From Candidatus Poribacteria bacterium (GTDB lineage: Bacteria; Poribacteria; WGA-4E; PCPOR2b), in assembly GCA_022822785.1 (NCBI GenBank), contig JAJEAL010000117.1:27321-91320 (forward strand): DNA of 64,000 nt, in the 5' to 3' direction. Within the stretch, counting starts at the first letter, position 1. Each line of letters opens with the position of its first letter. This document shows positions 30,100 to 47,186 of the stretch, piece after piece. Position numbers and translations under genes: made by a program. The notes under the pieces are model-generated. The model searched no databases and was not told the DNA's origin. It saw only the letters and a list, made by a program, of their open reading frames with translations.

Positions 30100-31443
30100 T
30101 TATTCCCGTTCTTTCCACCCCGGTCCGTCGCCAAACACACGGTTCGTCCCGACGAGCGGGATGTCGCAAATCATTGATGCTTCCAAATTCAGTGCCCTGA
30201 GGTCTTCGGGATCGAGGTCGTGTACATCTGCCTTGCCGCAAGCGCGGGCGAGGATCTGGATCTCCGAAGTCATCGCTTGCAGCAGGTTGGCGACGCGCTC
30301 TGCCGCCTCGTCGATGTCAAGGCGTTTCATCAGGTCGGGATCTTGGGTTGTAATCCCGACAGGACAGCGTCCTGTGTGGCAGTGGTGGCAATGGTACGGC
30401 TCGGTGCCGAGTTCGTGGTAGTCCTCGACATAGATAGGTTTGTTACAGTTTAGTGCCATCAGCCCTGCTGTGCCGATATAGACCGCATCCGCACCGAGCG
30501 CCATCGCCTTTGCTGCATCCACACCGTGTCGGATGCCGCCTGCGATGATGAGCTGCACTTCGCCGTACAGTCCGAGGTCTTCGAGTGCCGCGCGTGCCTC
30601 ACATACGGCGGCGAGCGTCGGAACCCCTGTGTGTTCCTGACAGATTTCGGCGGATGCGCCGGTGCCGCCTTCCATCCCGTCCACGACGATGACATCAGCA
30701 CCTGCCTTTGCCGCCAATTTCACATCATCGAATACTCGCGTCGCGCCCATTTTCACGAAGATTGGCACCTGCCAATCGGTTGCCTCCCGTAATTCTTCAA
30801 TTTTGATAATCATGTCGTCGGGACCGAGGAAGTCGGGATGCCGTGCCGGGCTGCGCTGATCAACGCCAAGGGGCAGATCCCGTTGTTCCGCGACCGTATC
30901 CAACACCTTTGATCCGAGCAGCAATCCTCCCGTTCCCGGCTTTGCGCCCTGTCCAATCGTCAACTCAATGCCGTCCGCCATCTGTAGATGGTGCACATCA
31001 ATGCCGTAGCGGGAGGGTAGCACCTCATAAATCAGCGCCCGGCTGTGCTCACGCTCCGCCATCAGCATCCCGCCGTCGCCCGTGGTATTGGACGAACCGA
31101 CGATATTCGCGCCCTTTGCGAGCGCGACCTTCGCGTTGTAGGAGAGCGCGCCCCAACTCATGCCGGTGATCATGATGGGAATATCAAGTTCAATCGGCTT
31201 TTCGGCGAAACGGGTGCCGAGAACGGTTTTGGGTGAACAACGTTCTCGATAGCCTTCGAGCGGAATGCGGGTCAGGGTGCAGGGGATGAAGGTGAGGTCG
31301 TCAAACGTCGCCCATCGCCGTTCACGCAACGTCCCAAATCCGCGGATACGATATCGCCCTAACTCCGCTTTGACTTGGATATCTTCAATGATGTCAGGGG
31401 TGAATGTTCCACTGGTTCGGAGGTTATCTGATTTGTCTGGCAT
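30100..31443 (-). CDS. mgsC: FMN-binding glutamate synthase domain protein, N-methylglutamate synthase large subunit (MgsC/GlxD type)
   Basis: A 447-aa protein equal to the FMN/iron-sulphur domain of glutamate synthase. It shows 'PIMITGMSWGALSYNAKVAL', 'GMLMAEREHS', 'IVVDGMEGGTGASAEICQ' and 'GIRHGVDAAKAMALGADAVY' (FMN phosphate site), then 'YHCHHCHTGRCPVGITTQ' with three cysteines for a 3Fe-4S cluster. In the N-methylglutamate pathway, the complex of MgsA, MgsB and MgsC transfers methylamine from gamma-glutamylmethylamide to form N-methylglutamate. The gene lies between the 111-aa gene and gmaS in an operon-like row on the minus strand. The 220-bp gap to gmaS contains repeats and may weaken coupling. 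Confidence 0.88.
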   Translation of the reverse strand: MPDKSDNLRTSGTFTPDIIEDIQVKAELGRYRIRGFGTLRERRWATFDDLTFIPCTLTRIPLEGYRERCSPKTVLGTRFAEKPIELDIPIMITGMSWGALSYNAKVALAKGANIVGSSNTTGDGGMLMAEREHSRALIYEVLPSRYGIDVHHLQMADGIELTIGQGAKPGTGGLLLGSKVLDTVAEQRDLPLGVDQRSPARHPDFLGPDDMIIKIEELREATDWQVPIFVKMGATRVFDDVKLAAKAGADVIVVDGMEGGTGASAEICQEHTGVPTLAAVCEARAALEDLGLYGEVQLIIAGGIRHGVDAAKAMALGADAVYIGTAGLMALNCNKPIYVEDYHELGTEPYHCHHCHTGRCPVGITTQDPDLMKRLDIDEAAERVANLLQAMTSEIQILARACGKADVHDLDPEDLRALNLEASMICDIPLVGTNRVFGDGPGWKERE

Positions 31444-31544
31444 TATAAAAAAGTTTCTCTCTCATGACTGTGGACGAATGAAGGCTGCCAAGTGTCCAGT
31501 TGTTGCCCACGCTTGCTGAAAATTCGCCAACGATGTCTGAGCGG

Positions 31545-31880
31545 TTAAGCCAGCCATTCGGCATTGGCATCGATCCTTTCTACTGTGTCTGTATCTGCTA
31601 GCAGTTCGCCCGTATCTGCGTCCACCAAAATTTCACCGACACGCCCAATGGTGCCTTTGGCAGGTGATGTAAGTACGACAGGTACTGACCAGCACAAGCG
31701 TTCACCGACATTCAAATCAGGGGTGTCACCGCAAAGTTGATTACTGATTTCACTGATGACAAATTGGGTAACCTTCTGCTGTGCTACAAAAGCTGTGATG
31801 TTTACTTGTGTTGTTATTTCAATTTTGAGGTCCACCGTTGCCCCTTCGGGGACTTGGACACCTTGAACATTCGTGGACAT
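31545..31880 (-). CDS. Conserved-looking 111-aa protein inserted in the mgs operon
   Basis: I do not recognise this 111-aa protein. It has no signal peptide or cysteine cluster apart from two separated cysteines. The C-terminus 'SPAKGTIGRVGEILVDADTG' reads like a small beta-rich fold. The start is well supported by aggaggtaat before the ATG at 31880. It sits between mgsB (24 bp upstream) and mgsC (101 bp downstream), in the same direction, so it is probably co-translated with them. It could be an accessory subunit or a maturation factor for N-methylglutamate synthase; nothing in the sequence proves it. Confidence 0.7.
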   Translation of the reverse strand: MSTNVQGVQVPEGATVDLKIEITTQVNITAFVAQQKVTQFVISEISNQLCGDTPDLNVGERLCWSVPVVLTSPAKGTIGRVGEILVDADTGELLADTDTVERIDANAEWLA

Positions 31881-31904
31881 TATATTACCTCCTTCTACAA
31901 CGAA

Positions 31905-32615
31905 TTACAACGCTTCCCGCCACACCGCTCGCTCGTCCTTATCGAAGTTCCACAGCTTGCGCCCAGAGACAACTTTCTTAAAATTGCGGATAGCGGTCTG
32001 TGAATTGCCATCTGTGGAAGGAAGATGCTGAGAGAGCGTGGATTCGAGGAAGGTGAGGTCTTCTTCGGTCGGTTCTTCAATTATGGCATCGTTGCCGAGT
32101 TCAGCGATATTACCACCGACAAAACAAACCGCTTCATACATCGAATCGGCGAACGCTTCACCGGTATCTCCGCAGACGATGATTGTCCCCCGCTGCGCCA
32201 TGAAACCCGCCATATAACCGCAGTTGCCGCCGACGATAATCAGGCCACCTTTCATCGAAACGCCCAACCGCGCAGCCGCATCGCTGCGAATAACAACTGT
32301 CCCACCTCGGATTGAAGCTGCTGCGCCGTTGCCCGCATTCCCTTTGACAATAACAGTACCACCCATCATGGACTCCGCCAATCCCCAACCCGCGCTCCCT
32401 TTGATCCCGACGGTGGGACCGTCAACCATCCCTGCACAGTAGTAGCCAACACTCCCGTTGAAGGTCAACTTCACCGGCTGTAGGATCGCCACGCCGAGAT
32501 TGTGCCGTGCGCCAGGATTTCTCAGCCGGATGTCAGTCTTACCGTCCGCGATGAGGCGTTTGATTTCCGTGTTGATGTCGCGGGTGGTTTTACCGTCACA
32601 GATTATGTCTGCCAT
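31905..32615 (-). CDS. mgsB: Glutamate synthase GXGXG-domain protein, N-methylglutamate synthase subunit (MgsB/GlxC type)
   Basis: A 236-aa beta-helix of the glutamate synthase C-terminal (GXGXG) type. The repeating units are evident: 'FNGSVGYYCAGMVDG', 'IKGSAGWGLAESMMGG', 'VKGNAGNGAAASIRGG', 'IRSDAAARLGVSMKGG' and 'VGGNCGYMAGFMAQRG'. The stand-alone form is the MgsB (GlxC) subunit. Its start (ATG 32615) overlaps the end of the upstream amidotransferase gene by 13 bp, indicating translational coupling. The C-terminal part ends 'WNFDKDERAVWREAL', short and acidic. Confidence 0.9.
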   Translation of the reverse strand: MADIICDGKTTRDINTEIKRLIADGKTDIRLRNPGARHNLGVAILQPVKLTFNGSVGYYCAGMVDGPTVGIKGSAGWGLAESMMGGTVIVKGNAGNGAAASIRGGTVVIRSDAAARLGVSMKGGLIIVGGNCGYMAGFMAQRGTIIVCGDTGEAFADSMYEAVCFVGGNIAELGNDAIIEEPTEEDLTFLESTLSQHLPSTDGNSQTAIRNFKKVVSGRKLWNFDKDERAVWREAL

Positions 32616-33511
32616 ACACTCACATCCTTTGCTTGTGCTTCGCGCACCTCAGAGCCGTCCCCGAAGGCAGCCCGGATCGCGATCTCTTCAGTTGCGACAG
32701 CGACAAAATCATCTGTTTCGGTAAAGAGTAGCGGTTTGAAGGCGAAGGGATCTTTGGCAAATCCAATATAATCCGTTGTTGCTGCGAGATAACTGAAGGA
32801 ACCGTCTAAATCGGTAAGCGACGCATCTAACGCTTCTTTGAACCCCAGTCCTTGGGACAATTGATCTGCGAGGTAAACACCGATGACTTCGGAGTCGTTT
32901 TCCGTGTAGAATCTGACACCGCGTTGTTCGTAGATGCAGCGTAATTTGTGGTAGTTTGTGATGTGTCCGTTGTGGACAATGGCGAGGTCAGGATAGTTGT
33001 GCGCCCAGAAAGGTTGCGAGTGACTCAGATCGACACGGCTCTCTGTCGAAAGGCGGGTATGTCCCAAGCCGTGTGTGCCTCGGAATGTCGAGACGCTGTG
33101 GGTTTCATCGAGGTTCTGGGGTGTGCCGACCTGCTTGACAATTTCGAGTTCGCGTCCCATGCTAACAACTTCGATGTCTTCATCTAAGGACTCAATGAAT
33201 TGTGTTAATGGTATTGCCTCTCCTCGCAGATCGATGACGAGCCGTAAATACTCAGCAGTTGTTTTCACTTCGTGCACGGAGCCGAATGCCTTGACCCCCT
33301 CTGCGATCGAAGTGCCCCTCTCAGCTGCGCCATCAAGTTCCCCCAATTTTATCTGCAGCGTGAACGCGCCATTTTCTGGAGGATGATAGAGTGCCACACC
33401 TGCCGAATCCGGTCCCCGCACTCCCAGTGCCGTGAGCATTGTGAGAACGGTCTTGCCCACAGGCGCGTTGCTATTTTGTGTTTTGTTTAAAAAACCAACG
33501 ATACCACACAC
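32603..33511 (-). CDS. mgsA: Class II glutamine amidotransferase, N-methylglutamate synthase subunit (MgsA/GlxB type)
   Basis: A 302-aa Ntn-hydrolase amidotransferase. The N-terminus 'MCGIVGFLNKT' places Cys2 as the nucleophile after methionine removal. Then come 'GHTRLSTESRVDLSHSQPF' and 'VHNGHITNYHKLR' (the substrate loop), as in GltB, GlmS and PurF. It is a GlxB/MgsA-type stand-alone domain. The gene begins with GTG at 33511, supported by aaggag 9 nt upstream and by the need for Cys at position 2. It is the first gene of the mgs row. Confidence 0.9.
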   Translation of the reverse strand: MCGIVGFLNKTQNSNAPVGKTVLTMLTALGVRGPDSAGVALYHPPENGAFTLQIKLGELDGAAERGTSIAEGVKAFGSVHEVKTTAEYLRLVIDLRGEAIPLTQFIESLDEDIEVVSMGRELEIVKQVGTPQNLDETHSVSTFRGTHGLGHTRLSTESRVDLSHSQPFWAHNYPDLAIVHNGHITNYHKLRCIYEQRGVRFYTENDSEVIGVYLADQLSQGLGFKEALDASLTDLDGSFSYLAATTDYIGFAKDPFAFKPLLFTETDDFVAVATEEIAIRAAFGDGSEVREAQAKDVSVWQT

Positions 33512-36793: not shown

Positions 36794-37104
36794 GTTCCTG
36801 ACCTAACATATTGTGTGATGTATAACACCTGCATCTTATCACATTTCTACCCATTCACGCCACCCAAAATCCGAAAACCTAAATCAGGATTCGATGAAAA
36901 ATCTAACGCAAGTTGCTTTGAATCCCGATCTTATCGGGGGCGCTATGACGCCAAGACATAAAGTTATTTTTCTTGGCGACTTTGTACCTTCGTGTTTTTG
37001 CGTTTTATTTGATCTGATTCTGAAAGTTCTATCATTCTGAGTATCTTTATTCAGAAAATGAACTTTTATCTCTCCTGCGGTGTCATTCACAGTGAAAGTC
37101 TTTT
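36794..37104. other. Intergenic region with hairpins
   Basis: A 311-bp spacer between the divergent oxidoreductase and ECF sigma genes. It contains two hairpins: cccgat/atcggg at 36924-36938 and cgccaag/cttggcg at 36949-36978, the latter in 'cgcaaag'-type repeat sequence. The promoters of both divergent genes must lie here, but I cannot assign -35/-10 boxes. Confidence 0.5.
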
Positions 37105-37719
37105 ATGATGGAACAGTCAGACCAAACCCTCATTTGCAAGATTGTGAAGCGCGATGCTGCTGCCTTTGAGATGCTTTTTGCCCGACATCGTGCGTCCGTT
37201 CGCCAGCATATCCTTAGCATCGTGCGGACTGAAAGTGCCGCTGAGGATCTGGTTCAAGAGGTGTTTTTGCGTGTCTGGACGCGCGCTGAACAGTGGAATG
37301 GTCAAGGCGAGTTCCAGGGTTGGCTTTTCCGCATCGCAACGAACCTCGCCCTCAATCATTTGCGCACCGTGCGGCGCCGGCGACAGGAACCCCTTGAACC
37401 ACCGCCTGACGAATTCGACGATGAGAATGAACGGCCGGCAGATCCAGATTGGATGATTGATACTTCGTCGCACGGTCCTGACGTGATAGTGGAGCAAACC
37501 GAGCGGTCTCAGCTGCTCTGGCAGCTTATTGATGGGCTGCCTCAAGAGAAACGAGAGGTGCTTCACCTCATATATGAGAAAGAAATGGCACTTCGAGAAG
37601 CTGCCATAGAGCTTGGCATTCCAGAAGGCACCGTGAAGTCGCGTTTACACTACTCCATAAGACATCTCGCCCGCGAATGGAAGGAAATCGCAAGCGATTG
37701 GGAAGAAGAGAAAGAGTGA
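37105..37719 (+). CDS. ECF-type RNA polymerase sigma factor
   Basis: A 204-aa sigma-70 family ECF sigma factor. Region 2 is 'DAAAFEMLFARHRASVRQHI' and 'AAEDLVQEVFLRVWT', ending 'GWLFRIATNLALNHLRTVRR'. The linker is acidic. Region 4 is 'LIDGLPQEKREVLHLIYEKE' with the DNA-binding helix 'IPEGTVKSRLHYSIRHL'. No anti-sigma gene is adjacent, which is unusual for ECF factors; the next gene, 239 bp downstream and on the same strand, encodes the beta-beta' RNA polymerase-like protein. The start ATG is doubled (MM) with only a weak ribosome site. Confidence 0.9.
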   Translation: MMEQSDQTLICKIVKRDAAAFEMLFARHRASVRQHILSIVRTESAAEDLVQEVFLRVWTRAEQWNGQGEFQGWLFRIATNLALNHLRTVRRRRQEPLEPPPDEFDDENERPADPDWMIDTSSHGPDVIVEQTERSQLLWQLIDGLPQEKREVLHLIYEKEMALREAAIELGIPEGTVKSRLHYSIRHLAREWKEIASDWEEEKE

Positions 37720-37746
37720 GCAGGCGGCAACGTTTTACACTTTCAA

Positions 37747-37930
37747 GACTTACGCAAATTTAGCACACAAGGGGTAGATTTTTGATTTTTAACCCCTTAA
37801 ATCCCCCAACTCCCCTGACAAGGGGGGAAGATAAGAGGGATCTTCTTCCTTGTCTTTCCCCTCTTATCAGAGGGGTTCAGGGGGACTTATGAACGCGCTG
37901 CGTCTGTCCTAACTTTATAACTTACACAAA
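37747..37930. repeat. Palindromic repeat cluster before the RNA polymerase-like gene
   Basis: Between acttacgcaa (37748-37757) and acttacacaa (37920-37929), which are near-identical direct repeats, lie several palindromes: aaccccttaaatccccc, cccctgacaagggg and gagaggg/ccctctt-like arms. The CCCC-rich part is related to the segments at 50893 and 52950. It fills most of the 239-bp spacer after the ECF sigma gene, so it could be a terminator or an inserted element. Confidence 0.55.
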
Positions 37931-37958
37931 CGCAGTAGGAAGGAGATAGGAGGGTAGC

Positions 37959-40900
37959 ATGTCACACAACGTTACTGCATTTTGGCATAAGGAATCCTTT
38001 GAAGGATTGATGAAAGAACGGTTACCAGAACTTCTCGCTGACCGGATGCCGCTCGCCGGTTATCATTTTGAGTCAACCGATACGTACACCTGTCGAGTCA
38101 GAGTTGTAATAGCGTCAACCGGGGGCTATATTGAGGTCGAATACACTGACATTCCGCAACCTGATACAGACGGTGTGTTCATGCTCAACGGTGAATCGTA
38201 TATTGTCGTGCCGACCGCTTCGACTGTGAAACTGAAACAAGCGAAGATCGAATGTGTAGGCGATCAACTGTACGACTACTTCAAAGCACGTATCAGGGAA
38301 GCACCGCCAGATCTGGCATGGAATACGTCGCTAGTCCACTTGTGGCTTCCGATTGATAGATGGGTGCGTGAATTTTTTAGCGATACATACACCGCTCAGA
38401 AACTCGCTCAGACCAACTGGCTTGACAAGCATTCACATCTGCGTAGGGTACGGATTTCACAAGGGAATCAGGTGTTTAGCCCTGGACACTTTGGGCGGAC
38501 TTGTCCATTTGAGACGCCAGAGGGACCCAACGTTGGCAAGATTCTAACGATTGCGAGGGGTGCAGAGATTCGTGATGGAAAATTGGTTATCGTGGATGAT
38601 ACTCCTGAAGCGACGCTTGGTTTATCTGCAGCGCTGATCCCTTTTCTCGAACACAACGACCCATCGCGAATACTCATGGGTGCAAACATGATGCGCCAGT
38701 GGTTATCCCCGTCTACTCCAGAGACTGCTCCGGTTAGGTGTTCCAACGAAATGTCAAGATCGGCTGCCTCTCCAGAACCTGCACTTGTCCAGACAGGTTA
38801 CGAGCCCGATGTCCCCGACTTTTGGTGTGGGCGTAATCTGTTGACCGCTTTTATCTCTTGGGGCGGGGATACTTTTGAGGATGGCATCGTGATTAGCGAG
38901 TCGTGTGCCGCACGTCTAAATTTTCCCTATGCCGTTGAACCGGGCGATAAGATTAGTAACCGTCACGGAACGAAAGGGGTCATTTCACGTATCATCCCTG
39001 ACGATGAGATGCCTCATCTCGCCGATGGTACGCCGGCAGAGCTTGTTTTCAGTTTTGGTGCTTTGCATGGACGGATGAACTTTGGTCAGATCCGTGAAGC
39101 GGTCATGAGCCGCATTGCGCGGGCGGAGGGGGAAGTCGCTATTGTGCCTCCATTTCAAGCACCTAGTGCCGATCAACTTCGTGAGCGACTCCAAAAGGTA
39201 GGATTGCCTGAAGATGGGATGGAAATCCTCACCTTTGGGTCCAACGGTAAGGAACTGGATCGGCCAAGCACGGTTGGTTGGGTGTATTGGGGGAAGACGG
39301 TTCACATCGCGCTCGATAAGCTCAAGGTTTCCGAGCCTATCGTTCATGACGAACCTATATACCATCAGGGACTTGGCGAACTGGAATACTATACACTCCG
39401 TAATGCTTCAGCATTTGAGACTTTGCGGGAACATTTCAACACCCGCGCTTCGACGCGGGTAGATGCGGGGACACTTCCCGATCGCGTTGCAGCAGGAACA
39501 GTTGAGCAGGCGGGACCACCGACGCCGATGTTTGCCAAAATCAGGGGACGACTGTCGGCAGCAGGCATCCACGCCAACTTTGATGGTGACCAGCTGACTT
39601 TCCAATTTGCGCGTCCGACTGGGGATACACTTCAGCTTGTCCAGCCAGTTGCCCATCCGTGGCTACATGCTCAAACCATTGATGAAGTTGGTATATGTGA
39701 AGGCATTTCCGAGTATCGTGCACTTGCCGATGTCAATACTAGAGCAGAGCGGATGTTTGCAAATGATGCACCGGAAAGTCTAACCCTTCAAGTCCTGAAG
39801 CAACTCCAAACACGTCTTGCGGAATACTTCGACGCGCTTCTAAGTCCCGCGGACATGCGCTTTACGGCACAAACGCTTTTCAGCGGACGCAGCGTCATTG
39901 TACCAGATGCAGAGTTACGCGCCGATCAGGTTGGCATTCCGGAGCAGATGGCATGGGCGCTTTTCGGGCCTCAGGTTACAAAAGAACTCGGTGATGCCAA
40001 AGCAGTGCGAGGACGCAGCCAAAGTGCAACACAGGCACTTGATGAACTGATGGCGCGTTCATGGGTGATTGTACATCGAGCTCCGGCGTTTACGTCTACC
40101 ACCCTTCTTGCATTCCATCCGGTGCGCCAACCGGACCGCACCATCCGTGTTCACCCCTTTGTTTGTGAGTTGATGAGTGCTGACTTTGATGGGGACCAAG
40201 CGGCGGTTTTTCTGCCCATCACAGCGGGGGGGCAACGGGAAGCCGGTGAGCAGCTGTCTATCGCCGGACATCTCAAACGAGATCCAAATGTGTGCACAGC
40301 GTTAGCCCCAGGGCATGACGCGATTTGGGGGTTGGCAAGTTTGAGTCTTACCCCTGAAGGATGTGACGAACTTTCAGAAGTTGTCGGGATGGAGATTGCT
40401 ATCCCTGAGGGTTTGGTCACACGGCGCTCATTGGCAGATACGCTAAAAACACTCCTCAAACGCGAAGGAATTGATCGCACCATTGAAGTTGCTGAACGGC
40501 TAATGCAGCGTGGACTCGAAATTGTAAAGGAATCGGGAGCCTCCATGAGTCCGTTCCTCAGTAGGAGCGATGGTAGTCCTTCCATTCCTACGGACTCCGA
40601 GGATGTAACAGCATGGAACGCCTACGCGGAAGAACTTATGGAGTGGATTGCTGCTTACGAAGACTTTGCTGATAACAACTTGGGATCGCACATCCTCGCG
40701 GTCAAAAGCCGCGCCTTTACGAGTAGACTTTATCGACTCGCTTGTGTTGTTGGGGCGCGAGGAGCGGTTTCAGATATTCGAGGCGGAGATATTGTGATTC
40801 GTAACGGGTATTGTGATGGTTTAACGTCTGATGAACTCTACACGCTATCTGTCGGCTCACGGGAAGGGCTTGTTCGCCTCAACTTGGAAGTGCAACGCGT

Positions 40901-41078
40901 TGCGTGGGAGTTCCGAGATAGCAGCCAATCGAAAGGGTTTACCGTTCTGTCTCGTGCGATGCGAGCCAGACATCCCGGCATCGTTTTCGCCCGTGCCGCA
41001 GCCTGCGGTGAAGTCGATCCGCTTACAGATATTGATAGCCGGCTTTTCGTTGGGCTGCCTGTAGCAAGAACCGAGTGA
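37959..41078 (+). CDS. Minimal fused beta-beta' RNA polymerase-like protein
   Basis: A 1039-aa single chain joining the catalytic cores of RNA polymerase beta and beta'. From beta: 'CPFETPEGPNVGKIL' (182-196), 'ALIPFLEHNDPSRILMGANM', 'FEDGIVISES' (Glu307-Asp308) and 'GDKISNRHGTKGVISRI' with the two active-site lysines (331, 339), then 'ADGTPAELVFS'. From beta': 'LFSGRSVIVPDAEL' (640 on), 'VIVHRAPAF', and the catalytic triad 'SADFDGDQAAVFLP' (Asp742, 744, 746), then a bridge-helix 'VVGARGAVSDIRGG' (932 on) and 'GSREGLVRL' at the trigger loop. Most outer modules are absent: the beta lobes, the flap (FED to GDK is 22 residues), the beta' clamp, its zinc finger and the clamp helices. The usual trigger-loop 'STHGARKG' is missing too. 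The ATG has aggagg upstream. It probably makes RNA; primed or unprimed synthesis is open. Confidence 0.85.
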   Translation: MSHNVTAFWHKESFEGLMKERLPELLADRMPLAGYHFESTDTYTCRVRVVIASTGGYIEVEYTDIPQPDTDGVFMLNGESYIVVPTASTVKLKQAKIECVGDQLYDYFKARIREAPPDLAWNTSLVHLWLPIDRWVREFFSDTYTAQKLAQTNWLDKHSHLRRVRISQGNQVFSPGHFGRTCPFETPEGPNVGKILTIARGAEIRDGKLVIVDDTPEATLGLSAALIPFLEHNDPSRILMGANMMRQWLSPSTPETAPVRCSNEMSRSAASPEPALVQTGYEPDVPDFWCGRNLLTAFISWGGDTFEDGIVISESCAARLNFPYAVEPGDKISNRHGTKGVISRIIPDDEMPHLADGTPAELVFSFGALHGRMNFGQIREAVMSRIARAEGEVAIVPPFQAPSADQLRERLQKVGLPEDGMEILTFGSNGKELDRPSTVGWVYWGKTVHIALDKLKVSEPIVHDEPIYHQGLGELEYYTLRNASAFETLREHFNTRASTRVDAGTLPDRVAAGTVEQAGPPTPMFAKIRGRLSAAGIHANFDGDQLTFQFARPTGDTLQLVQPVAHPWLHAQTIDEVGICEGISEYRALADVNTRAERMFANDAPESLTLQVLKQLQTRLAEYFDALLSPADMRFTAQTLFSGRSVIVPDAELRADQVGIPEQMAWALFGPQVTKELGDAKAVRGRSQSATQALDELMARSWVIVHRAPAFTSTTLLAFHPVRQPDRTIRVHPFVCELMSADFDGDQAAVFLPITAGGQREAGEQLSIAGHLKRDPNVCTALAPGHDAIWGLASLSLTPEGCDELSEVVGMEIAIPEGLVTRRSLADTLKTLLKREGIDRTIEVAERLMQRGLEIVKESGASMSPFLSRSDGSPSIPTDSEDVTAWNAYAEELMEWIAAYEDFADNNLGSHILAVKSRAFTSRLYRLACVVGARGAVSDIRGGDIVIRNGYCDGLTSDELYTLSVGSREGLVRLNLEVQRVAWEFRDSSQSKGFTVLSRAMRARHPGIVFARAAACGEVDPLTDIDSRLFVGLPVARTE

Positions 41079-46355: not shown

Positions 46356-47186
46356 ATGGCAAGCACCTCAAATTACCCCTCTCCCGAAGTCCTTGTTGCG
46401 ATTATGAATAACCACCGGGACTTGGAAATCGCGCGAACGCAACGTTGGTATCGCATTCCCGTTAAAAGCGCGGATCGGCTTATTCCGGAACTGGAGCAGA
46501 TGCAATACCTCGCATTCTACCAAACTGTGGTTTTCAAAAGGGACGCCTATGCTGTGAACTACTATGTGCAGATTGAGCGGATAAGTACCGCACCACGGAT
46601 CGAGTTGTTGCCTGATGAACCGGGACACCAGAATGCAGAGGTGCTGTATTACAAACTGGAGATTTCGCCATTACAACAGTTGCCGCAACCAATTCCAAGC
46701 AAACGCCTACGGCGCGTTACTTTCATTACGACGACACTAGCGAAATTCAGTGCAGCGCAGGAAATTAACGATCTCTTCCACACCAGTCCGATCGAAGATC
46801 TGATGTGGGACGGGCTAAGAGCCGCTGAAATCCAAGCGGAACGCCAGTATGAAATCCGTGAACGCGGCGCCAGTTATGACTTAGATTTCTTTGTTGAGTG
46901 CAGCGACGGAACTAGGATTAACATTGAATGCAATGGCGATACCTACCATTCGACCAAAGCTGCGAGAGACCGTGATAGGAGGAGAAATACCTACCTAACA
47001 ACCAATGACTGGTTGGTTCTGCGTTTCGGCACGGCCGAGCTTCGCAATGACATACGCGGTTGCGTCAATAAAGTCCGAAAGCTTATTAACCAACACGGAG
47101 GACCCGTCGATCGTAGCTTGGCTTACGATCTCTACCGAGATGATACAGATGCACAACTGAATCTCTTTGGGGAAGAAGAGGAATAA
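46356..47186 (+). CDS. DUF559-like endonuclease-domain protein
   Basis: A 276-aa protein. The C-terminal half is a Vsr/DUF559-type nuclease fold: 'SPIEDLMWDGLRAAEIQAER', 'YDLDFFVECSDG' (catalytic Asp), 'INIECNGDTYHSTKAARDRD' (Glu, Asn and His of the active site) and 'RRNTYLTTNDWLVLRFG'. The N-terminal 140 residues contain a beta-rich region of unknown function. Related domains occur in restriction enzymes, mismatch endonucleases and mobile elements. The gene lies alone between the GH127-like gene and a dehydrogenase gene on the other strand, so context gives no hint of a methylase partner. Confidence 0.75.
   Translation: MASTSNYPSPEVLVAIMNNHRDLEIARTQRWYRIPVKSADRLIPELEQMQYLAFYQTVVFKRDAYAVNYYVQIERISTAPRIELLPDEPGHQNAEVLYYKLEISPLQQLPQPIPSKRLRRVTFITTTLAKFSAAQEINDLFHTSPIEDLMWDGLRAAEIQAERQYEIRERGASYDLDFFVECSDGTRINIECNGDTYHSTKAARDRDRRRNTYLTTNDWLVLRFGTAELRNDIRGCVNKVRKLINQHGGPVDRSLAYDLYRDDTDAQLNLFGEEEE

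Follow-up and report, generated by a model that had tools for sequence, protein, structure and literature searches.

The question raised by this locus is what a bacterium that has an ordinary RNA polymerase does with a predicted second one, reduced to a single chain and encoded directly behind the gene of a sigma factor. The locus lies in a stretch of 64,000 nucleotides from Candidatus Poribacteria bacterium (assembly GCA_022822785.1, contig JAJEAL010000117.1, positions 27,321 to 91,320), hereafter the window, in whose numbering all window positions are given. It comprises a gene for a beta-beta' protein of 1039 residues, hereafter the mini-polymerase, a gene for a sigma factor of the extracytoplasmic function (ECF) type, and a promoter-like site in front of both. 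As far as the sequences can be read, the operon's ECF-type sigma would dock on the clamp helices of the mini-polymerase and guide it to promoters of the form GAAC-N18-GTC, the two proteins forming a minimal second transcription system; this is, in our judgement, on balance the probable answer.

A predicted polymerase in a single chain

The gene and its two catalytic sites are placed as follows.

37959..41078, plus strand: gene for a single-chain beta-beta' RNA polymerase of 1039 amino acids (open frame, Pfam, protein search, structure model)
38943..38978, plus strand: beta barrel with Lys331 and Lys339, residues 329-340, GDKISNRHGTKG, equivalent to E. coli beta 1063-1074
40182..40196, plus strand: beta' barrel with the catalytic Asp triad DFDGD, residues 742-746

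The frame runs uninterrupted from ATG to TGA, and the one chain carries three Pfam domains, RNA_pol_Rpb2_3 (2.7e-9), RNA_pol_Rpb2_6 (4.8e-40) and RNA_pol_Rpb1_2 (3.6e-18), which bears out an earlier reading made from the letters and their translations (the sequence-only reading), whereby the cores of beta and beta' are joined in one unbroken frame. Profile matches to solved enzymes reach E-values of 2.7e-68 for beta and 1.2e-46 for beta'. The catalytic lysines and Asp triad, which had been called intact, stand at the positions claimed, K331 and K339 in GDK...NRHGTKG and D742, D744 and D746 in DFDGD, and are conserved across the family. Among 35 full-length members (the window and 34 other loci), residue 331 is K in 31 and R in four, residue 339 is K in 33, R335, H336, G337, D744 and D746 never vary, and residue 742 is D in 33, N in one and Y in one. 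Both features that characterize the two-barrel (double-psi beta-barrel) RNA polymerases are present, i.e. the beta-type lysines GDK...HGxKG and the beta'-type DxDxD, and these residues suggest that the chain likely synthesises RNA. The chain does not have the make-up of a canonical multi-subunit core, with full-length beta and beta' that include a flap and a trigger loop.

In the protein search, 7509 of 7998 scored candidates had E <= 0.001, some of which will be ordinary RpoB. The 120 matches listed cover 95-100% of the query at identities of 50-59, 67-70 or 84-90% (the query itself excluded), and the organism names among them are Poribacteria, Hydrogenedentes, Chloroflexi, Anaerolineae and Ktedonobacteraceae. 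Most of these are annotated as 'hypothetical protein', and a few products are strings of Pfam domain names. What emerged from this search, which the sequence-only reading had called for, is a large family of full-length proteins and not decayed fragments only, and the frame cannot be a product of chance. The best 80 of 167 relatives in a scan of a genome collection consist of 42 family loci (L004-L045) and 38 archaeal loci (L046-L083), the latter giving partial, low-identity matches only. The frame is intact in 34 of the 42 family loci and open but partial in five more, and the ratio of nonsynonymous to synonymous substitution rates (dN/dS) is 0.14-0.17 against five Poribacteria relatives, all of which speaks for the earlier opinion that the gene is not a pseudogene. 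The copy of Dictyobacter kobayashii (L019:10001-13051) has two in-frame TGA codons (663 and 672), past which the similarity continues in the same frame.

Ordinary rpoB and rpoC are encoded on another contig of the same genome, where their open frames, counted from the first Met, have 1420 and 1436 residues, and the sigma/mini-polymerase pair is consequently an accessory one. The presence of these genes, and a longest contig of 338.5 kb, fit the chromosomal location that had been proposed. Ordinary RpoB was also matched in 14 of 17 other genomes with a mini-polymerase; in the remaining three (G087, G089 and G095) only the mini-polymerase was matched, which may be explained by genome incompleteness. 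Within the window's phylum, 11 of 84 genomes have the mini-polymerase, as do 5 of the 6 in the window's genus. The phylum of L020 (Latescibacteria by title) has it in 22 of 64 genomes; L022, L028 and L038, whose genomes bear the titles Gemmatimonadota, Gemmatimonadaceae or Gemmatimonadetes, belong to this phylum too. For L025 (Armatimonadota by title) the count in its phylum is 17 of 201, for L010 (Hydrogenedentota by title) 2 of 68, and for Dictyobacter 4 of 400, where only two candidates per genome were scored and the figure may be an undercount. No place covering 80% of the mini-polymerase was found among 50,697 phage and 72,556 plasmid records, in line with the non-phage character assigned to it earlier. 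The best 80 of 141 matches on viral contigs are either long at low identity or short stretches (up to 57%), and one such contig (L134:7179-13109) carries two separate adjacent compact genes, first a beta'-like one (901 aa) and then a beta-like one (1007 aa).

A paired sigma gene and a fixed promoter-like site

The operon begins with three further elements, all upstream of the polymerase frame.

37060..37084, plus strand: promoter-like sequence GAACTTTTATCTCTCCTGCGGTGTC before the sigma gene, with -35-like GAACTT and -10-like GGTGTC in the arrangement GAAC-N18-GTC
37105..37719, plus strand: gene for an ECF-type sigma factor of 204 aa with regions 2 and 4 only (Sigma70_r2 3.9e-17, Sigma70_r4 2.1e-11)
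37720..37958, plus strand: spacer between the sigma and polymerase genes, containing an inverted repeat (GATAAGAGGG...CCCTCTTATC) and, ahead of the polymerase ATG, AGGAGATAGGAGGG, which resembles a ribosome-binding site

The sigma gene stands directly upstream of the mini-polymerase on the same strand, and a sigma homologue occupies this place in 41 of the 42 family loci, the exception (L035) being a fragment whose match begins at residue 329. Searches of five phyla added 21 non-duplicate loci, from which three partial genes were left out (L256, L260 and L279, with 0, 1 and 152 upstream bases, respectively); a sigma is upstream in all 18 others, L245 and L246 being complete only with more flanking DNA. 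When the gap is measured up to the start of the polymerase match, 11 of the 41 loci show an overlap of exactly 4 bp between the two frames, and 33 have them within 100 bp of each other (overlaps included); the gap is 169-324 bp in four, and in another four (L026, L030, L031 and L044) it exceeds 1.2 kb and holds an intervening gene. No other gene cluster lies beside the polymerase in more than 8 of the 42 loci, several of which are on short contigs, and none of the eight neighbouring window proteins scanned is alpha or omega.

In a tree of 41 adjacent sigmas, including that of the window (L044 was left out because its sigma is broken), and of 13 other ECF sigmas of fewer than 260 aa drawn from 28 region-2 matches of the window's genome, the adjacent sigmas form one clade apart from the other 13, on a branch with full support (Shimodaira-Hasegawa-like approximate likelihood ratio test, SH-aLRT, 100). 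This clade is marked by a P-x-W-M-I-D linker motif. For 35 pairs, the sigma and polymerase trees have 13 of 32 splits in common, where permutation gave at most 2 in 500 trials, and their distances correlate at 0.86, where permuted sets reached at most 0.29 in 2000.

The promoter-like site is the sole match of its kind in the window, the expected number being 0.05, and the block upstream of sigma is conserved in five genomes of the window's genus amid diverged DNA. In the window and 40 loci, GAAC followed by GTC was sought with 18 to 21 bases between them; 40 of these 41 operons have it (L032 does not), and the spacing is exactly 18 in all 40. Mononucleotide shuffles gave a site in 1.9 operons on average and in eight at most. 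A further 17 of 18 operons have GAAC-N18-GTC (L273 is the one without), which brings the total to 57 of the 59 operons examined, and the consensus of 26 rows, after near copies were dropped, reads GAACCTT...CGGTGTC. At least five bacterial phyla have the two genes, for sigma and mini-polymerase, with this promoter-like sequence in front of them. The sequence-only reading had proposed a secondary RNA polymerase, and its accessory status in a genome with ordinary rpoB and rpoC agrees with this; the polymerase is not alone, however, and the adjacent sigma gene and fixed promoter, both of which had been overlooked, change the reading of the locus, which now becomes a sigma-polymerase pair and no longer a secondary polymerase on its own.

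Beyond the operons the picture is less sharp. A stricter pattern gave 17 matches in 13 genomes, nine at mini-polymerase operons and eight elsewhere; the reversed control gave 11, so the matches outside operons do not point to a clear regulon. This pattern misses true sites, since the operon sites of G014, G091 and G099 fall outside it, and it has no match in G022, a genome of the window's genus without a polymerase match. Nine extra sites were inspected. One (L220) proved to be an operon; of the other eight, some fall within genes or are not clearly followed by any gene. Two genomes from a single related genus share a site (L211 and L212, at G013:C27:5237 and G014:C1:36390), a second copy of the promoter that is followed by similar bases; the gene behind it reads by eye as an ABC-2-type permease and is a possible target.

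Several observations on the same operons may be added. Within the window, a second copy of the spacer at 37720-37958 was not found; six other Poribacteria loci have variable spacers (73-324 bp in five, an overlap in L008), as if small repeats had been inserted. Upstream of sigma, seven of the 42 loci (L011:7404-9277, L026, L027, L030, L031, L036 and L042) encode a protein of about 330 aa, and in six of these seven a gene of about 320 aa comes next. A DksA/TraR zinc finger (PF01258, above cut-off) was present in both of the larger proteins tested (L011 and L036). DksA/TraR proteins act on RNA polymerase, and one of this type could conceivably regulate the mini-polymerase. P0155, a metagenomic protein of 1135 aa in which sigma region 2 is in frame with polymerase residue 72 onward, was considered as a natural sigma-polymerase fusion and rejected. 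It begins inside region 2 and has neither sigma region 4 nor polymerase residues 1-71, truncations that make deletion or misassembly as likely as fusion, and it therefore lends no support to the pairing; it is the only protein with a sigma domain among the best 120 of 315.

Modules kept and lost

Three segments of the chain matter for what it may still do.

39708..39839, plus strand: helical hairpin, residues 584-627, equivalent to the beta' clamp helices (E. coli beta' 267-309), the docking site of sigma region 2
40827..40925, plus strand: bridge helix, residues 957-989 (beta' profile match; helix 957-989 in the model)
40977..41054, plus strand: highly conserved C-terminal segment, residues 1007-1032, GIVFARAAACGEVDPLTDIDSRLFVG, with its best match at the C-terminal end of beta' (E. 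coli 1329-1354)

The AlphaFold model is confident (predicted local distance difference test, pLDDT, 91; predicted template modelling score, pTM, 0.89) and can be superposed on beta and, in its second half, on beta'. Since structure alignments of the whole model were dominated by beta, the beta' half was modelled separately and then compared by structure alignment. Superposition on beta and beta' suggests that K331, K339 and the Asp triad would meet in space. By profile alignment, the mini-polymerase covers, with gaps, positions from about 444 to 1342 of E. coli beta, and its residues 563-987 correspond to E. coli beta' 243-799. The hairpin at 584-627 has profile matches to E. coli beta' 268-308 and also 267-512, and helices 584-601 and 606-627 of the model form the clamp-helix hairpin.

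Among the modules lost is the flap (E. coli beta 826-1056), which has no counterpart by profile alignment, as had been read from the sequence; alignment with E. coli beta and beta' likewise gave no counterpart for the jaw, for the loop that follows the clamp helices or for much of the lobe region. The clamp had also been counted as lost, and this holds in part, in that much of the beta' clamp has no detectable counterpart, but its helical hairpin is retained. The trigger-loop remnants reported by the sequence-only reading did not stand up to alignment, as the beta' alignment ends at 799 and no profile match covers more than one column of that loop. The C-terminal GEVDPLTDxDSRLFVGL was tried as the trigger loop in a by-eye alignment with the trigger-loop motif and was rejected, profile and structure alignments placing it at the end of beta'. 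The scores for this placement are weak (E 0.047, and -1.2 bits against E. coli alone), and many structure alignments stop near the same beta' end (E. coli about 1356). A structural remnant of the trigger loop may still be present. With no trigger loop detectable, it would fall to the two barrels and the bridge helix to carry out catalysis.

Probable docking of sigma and the alternatives

In ordinary holoenzymes, as described in PMC10216364, sigma region 2 binds the beta' clamp helices and region 4 the flap tip. Eight clamp-helix contact residues were taken from that source; in the mini-polymerase R278, R281 and I291 are retained in kind, and L282 is mostly hydrophobic. The sigma retains the matching D, E and aromatic contact residue, and Trp at sigma position 58 is present in 41 of 41 adjacent sigmas versus 3 of 13 other ECF sigmas. 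A sigma-guided mini-polymerase would work as follows: the sigma and polymerase genes would be expressed on one transcript, the single chain would make RNA, and sigma region 2 would bind the chain's clamp helices, the flap for region 4 being absent. Sigma and mini-polymerase would then read their own promoter, producing a positive loop, and the cell would have a small second transcription system for use under some condition. A bolder proposal, which we consider possible but less likely than not, is an orthogonal two-protein holoenzyme without alpha, omega, flap or trigger loop, which would read GAAC-N18-GTC (typically GAACYT...CGGTGTC), its own promoter first, and so switch itself on in a closed positive loop that does not depend on the housekeeping polymerase.

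Several points weigh against guidance of the mini-polymerase by this sigma. R275 is replaced by A or V in 32 of the 35 full-length members and E295 by A in 23 of them, mostly polar residues take the place of L285 and M298, and the acidic contacts of the sigma are a common feature of the remaining ECF sigmas of the genome as well. The flap is wholly absent from the mini-polymerase, yet the sigma retains region 4. The agreement of the two trees may come partly from the shared descent of linked genes, and no regulon is visible beyond the operon with the strict pattern in 13 genomes. As to the enzyme itself, D742 is replaced by N or Y in two of the 35 members and by N in three of the 30 rows of alignment A1 (P0012, P0031 and P0036), in all of which impaired activity would be expected, and the copies L018, L019 and L044 have stops or frameshifts. 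The promoter, moreover, resembles an ordinary ECF promoter, which the housekeeping polymerase could use.

The sigma might instead serve the ordinary RNA polymerase and switch on the operon, and the mini-polymerase would then act without sigma, e.g. independently of promoters or on single-stranded, damaged or foreign templates. This division of labour would suit a promoter of the usual ECF shape, a sigma that keeps its core-binding residues as well as region 4, a mini-polymerase without the flap that region 4 needs, promoter copies elsewhere that do not exceed the control level, and a genome that has ordinary rpoB and rpoC. It would leave unexplained why the clamp-helix hairpin is retained with much of the clamp deleted, and why one clade of sigmas has stayed beside the polymerase across five phyla, and although it is the chief competitor of sigma guidance we consider it possible but rather unlikely. 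Anti-sigma genes usually lie directly after ECF sigma genes, and the mini-polymerase gene, which is found directly after its sigma gene and retains the clamp helices, could mainly encode a sigma sink in their place, keeping the sigma from the ordinary polymerase; for binding, however, the conserved catalytic lysines, Asp residues and bridge helix would be unnecessary, and such a role seems very improbable. Least probable of all is that the gene was left behind by, or strayed from, a phage or plasmid and has persisted by accident, an origin to which the patchy presence in phylum and genus and the compact polymerases of phages (PMC10770324, PMC7481178) would lend some colour, but which is at odds with the low dN/dS, with phage and plasmid records devoid of any 80%-coverage match (neighbouring mobile elements were not systematically searched), and with viral-contig matches that, among the best 80 of 141, are of low identity or short, L134 having two separate genes.

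Comparison with known systems

The mini-polymerase and its adjacent sigma have points in common with several known systems. YonO of phage SPbeta, as described in PMC5467207, makes RNA, has no detectable trigger-loop homology and has only few residues in common with multi-subunit enzymes, and its relatives are also present in bacterial chromosomes. Like YonO, the mini-polymerase unites the catalytic residues of the two large subunits in a single chain and has no detectable trigger loop; unlike YonO in that description, it matches beta and beta' extensively and sits behind a dedicated sigma gene. These matches agree with the earlier statement that it is the closer of the two to cellular RNA polymerase. 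With the multi-subunit enzyme (rpoB, rpoC) it shares the barrels, catalytic residues, fork region, bridge helix, clamp helices and beta C-terminus, but in one chain of 1039 residues as against 2749 in E. coli. The fused beta-beta' proteins (NCBIfam PRK09603 and PRK14844) have both subunits in one chain in the same order; these models, however, have 2890 and 2839 positions, and they give the mini-polymerase 149 and 171 bits where the cut-offs are 5372 and 4632, respectively.

Single-chain two-barrel RNA polymerases are also described for phages, namely gp66 of crAss-like phages and gp64 and gp96 of P23-45 (PMC10770324, PMC7481178). The crAssphage enzyme is reported as highly divergent from cellular RNA polymerase (PMC7481178); the first part of the trigger loop is given as conserved in all RNA polymerases compared, and gp96 as clamp-less (PMC10770324). 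Unlike these phage-borne enzymes as described, the mini-polymerase is close to cellular ones, has no detectable trigger loop, and has a clamp-helix hairpin and an adjacent sigma. K2ORF6p of a yeast virus-like element is similar in that beta is fused to part of beta', but it belongs to a cytoplasmic element and acts together with a second chain (ORF7), and no sigma pairing is described for it in the account consulted (PMC6211774). The adjacent sigma, for its part, resembles other ECF (group 4) sigma factors in having regions 2 and 4 only and a GAAC/GTC promoter before its own operon. It differs from them in that its conserved partner is a polymerase, in forming a distinct clade, in the invariant N18 spacing of the sites found, and in the P-x-W-M-I-D motif. 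In the titles and abstracts listed by searches of open-licence PubMed Central papers, a scope that most subscription papers fall outside, no description of this gene pair was found, and the accounts of single-chain enzymes consulted here mention no chromosomal, cellular-type polymerase paired with a sigma.

Two other observations were made in the window. On the plus strand, 46356-47186 encodes a protein that has an MTES_1575/DUF559 restriction-endonuclease-like domain and matches parts of three defence models (best 5.6e-9). On the minus strand, adjacent genes at 30100-33511 read in translation like split domains of glutamate synthase.

Significance

If the sigma does guide the mini-polymerase, the pair would be a natural minimal sigma-dependent RNA polymerase, consisting of two proteins versus a core of about 400 kDa plus sigma. 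Its composition would show which modules promoter-specific initiation needs (the barrels, bridge helix and clamp helices) and that the flap and trigger loop are dispensable outside phages as well. As a compact enzyme it could also serve as a tool for orthogonal gene expression, and the question of how small a sigma-responsive polymerase can be would become directly testable with two genes and one 25-bp promoter. For the bacteria that carry it, it would mean that a cell can maintain a second, separately addressed transcription machine.

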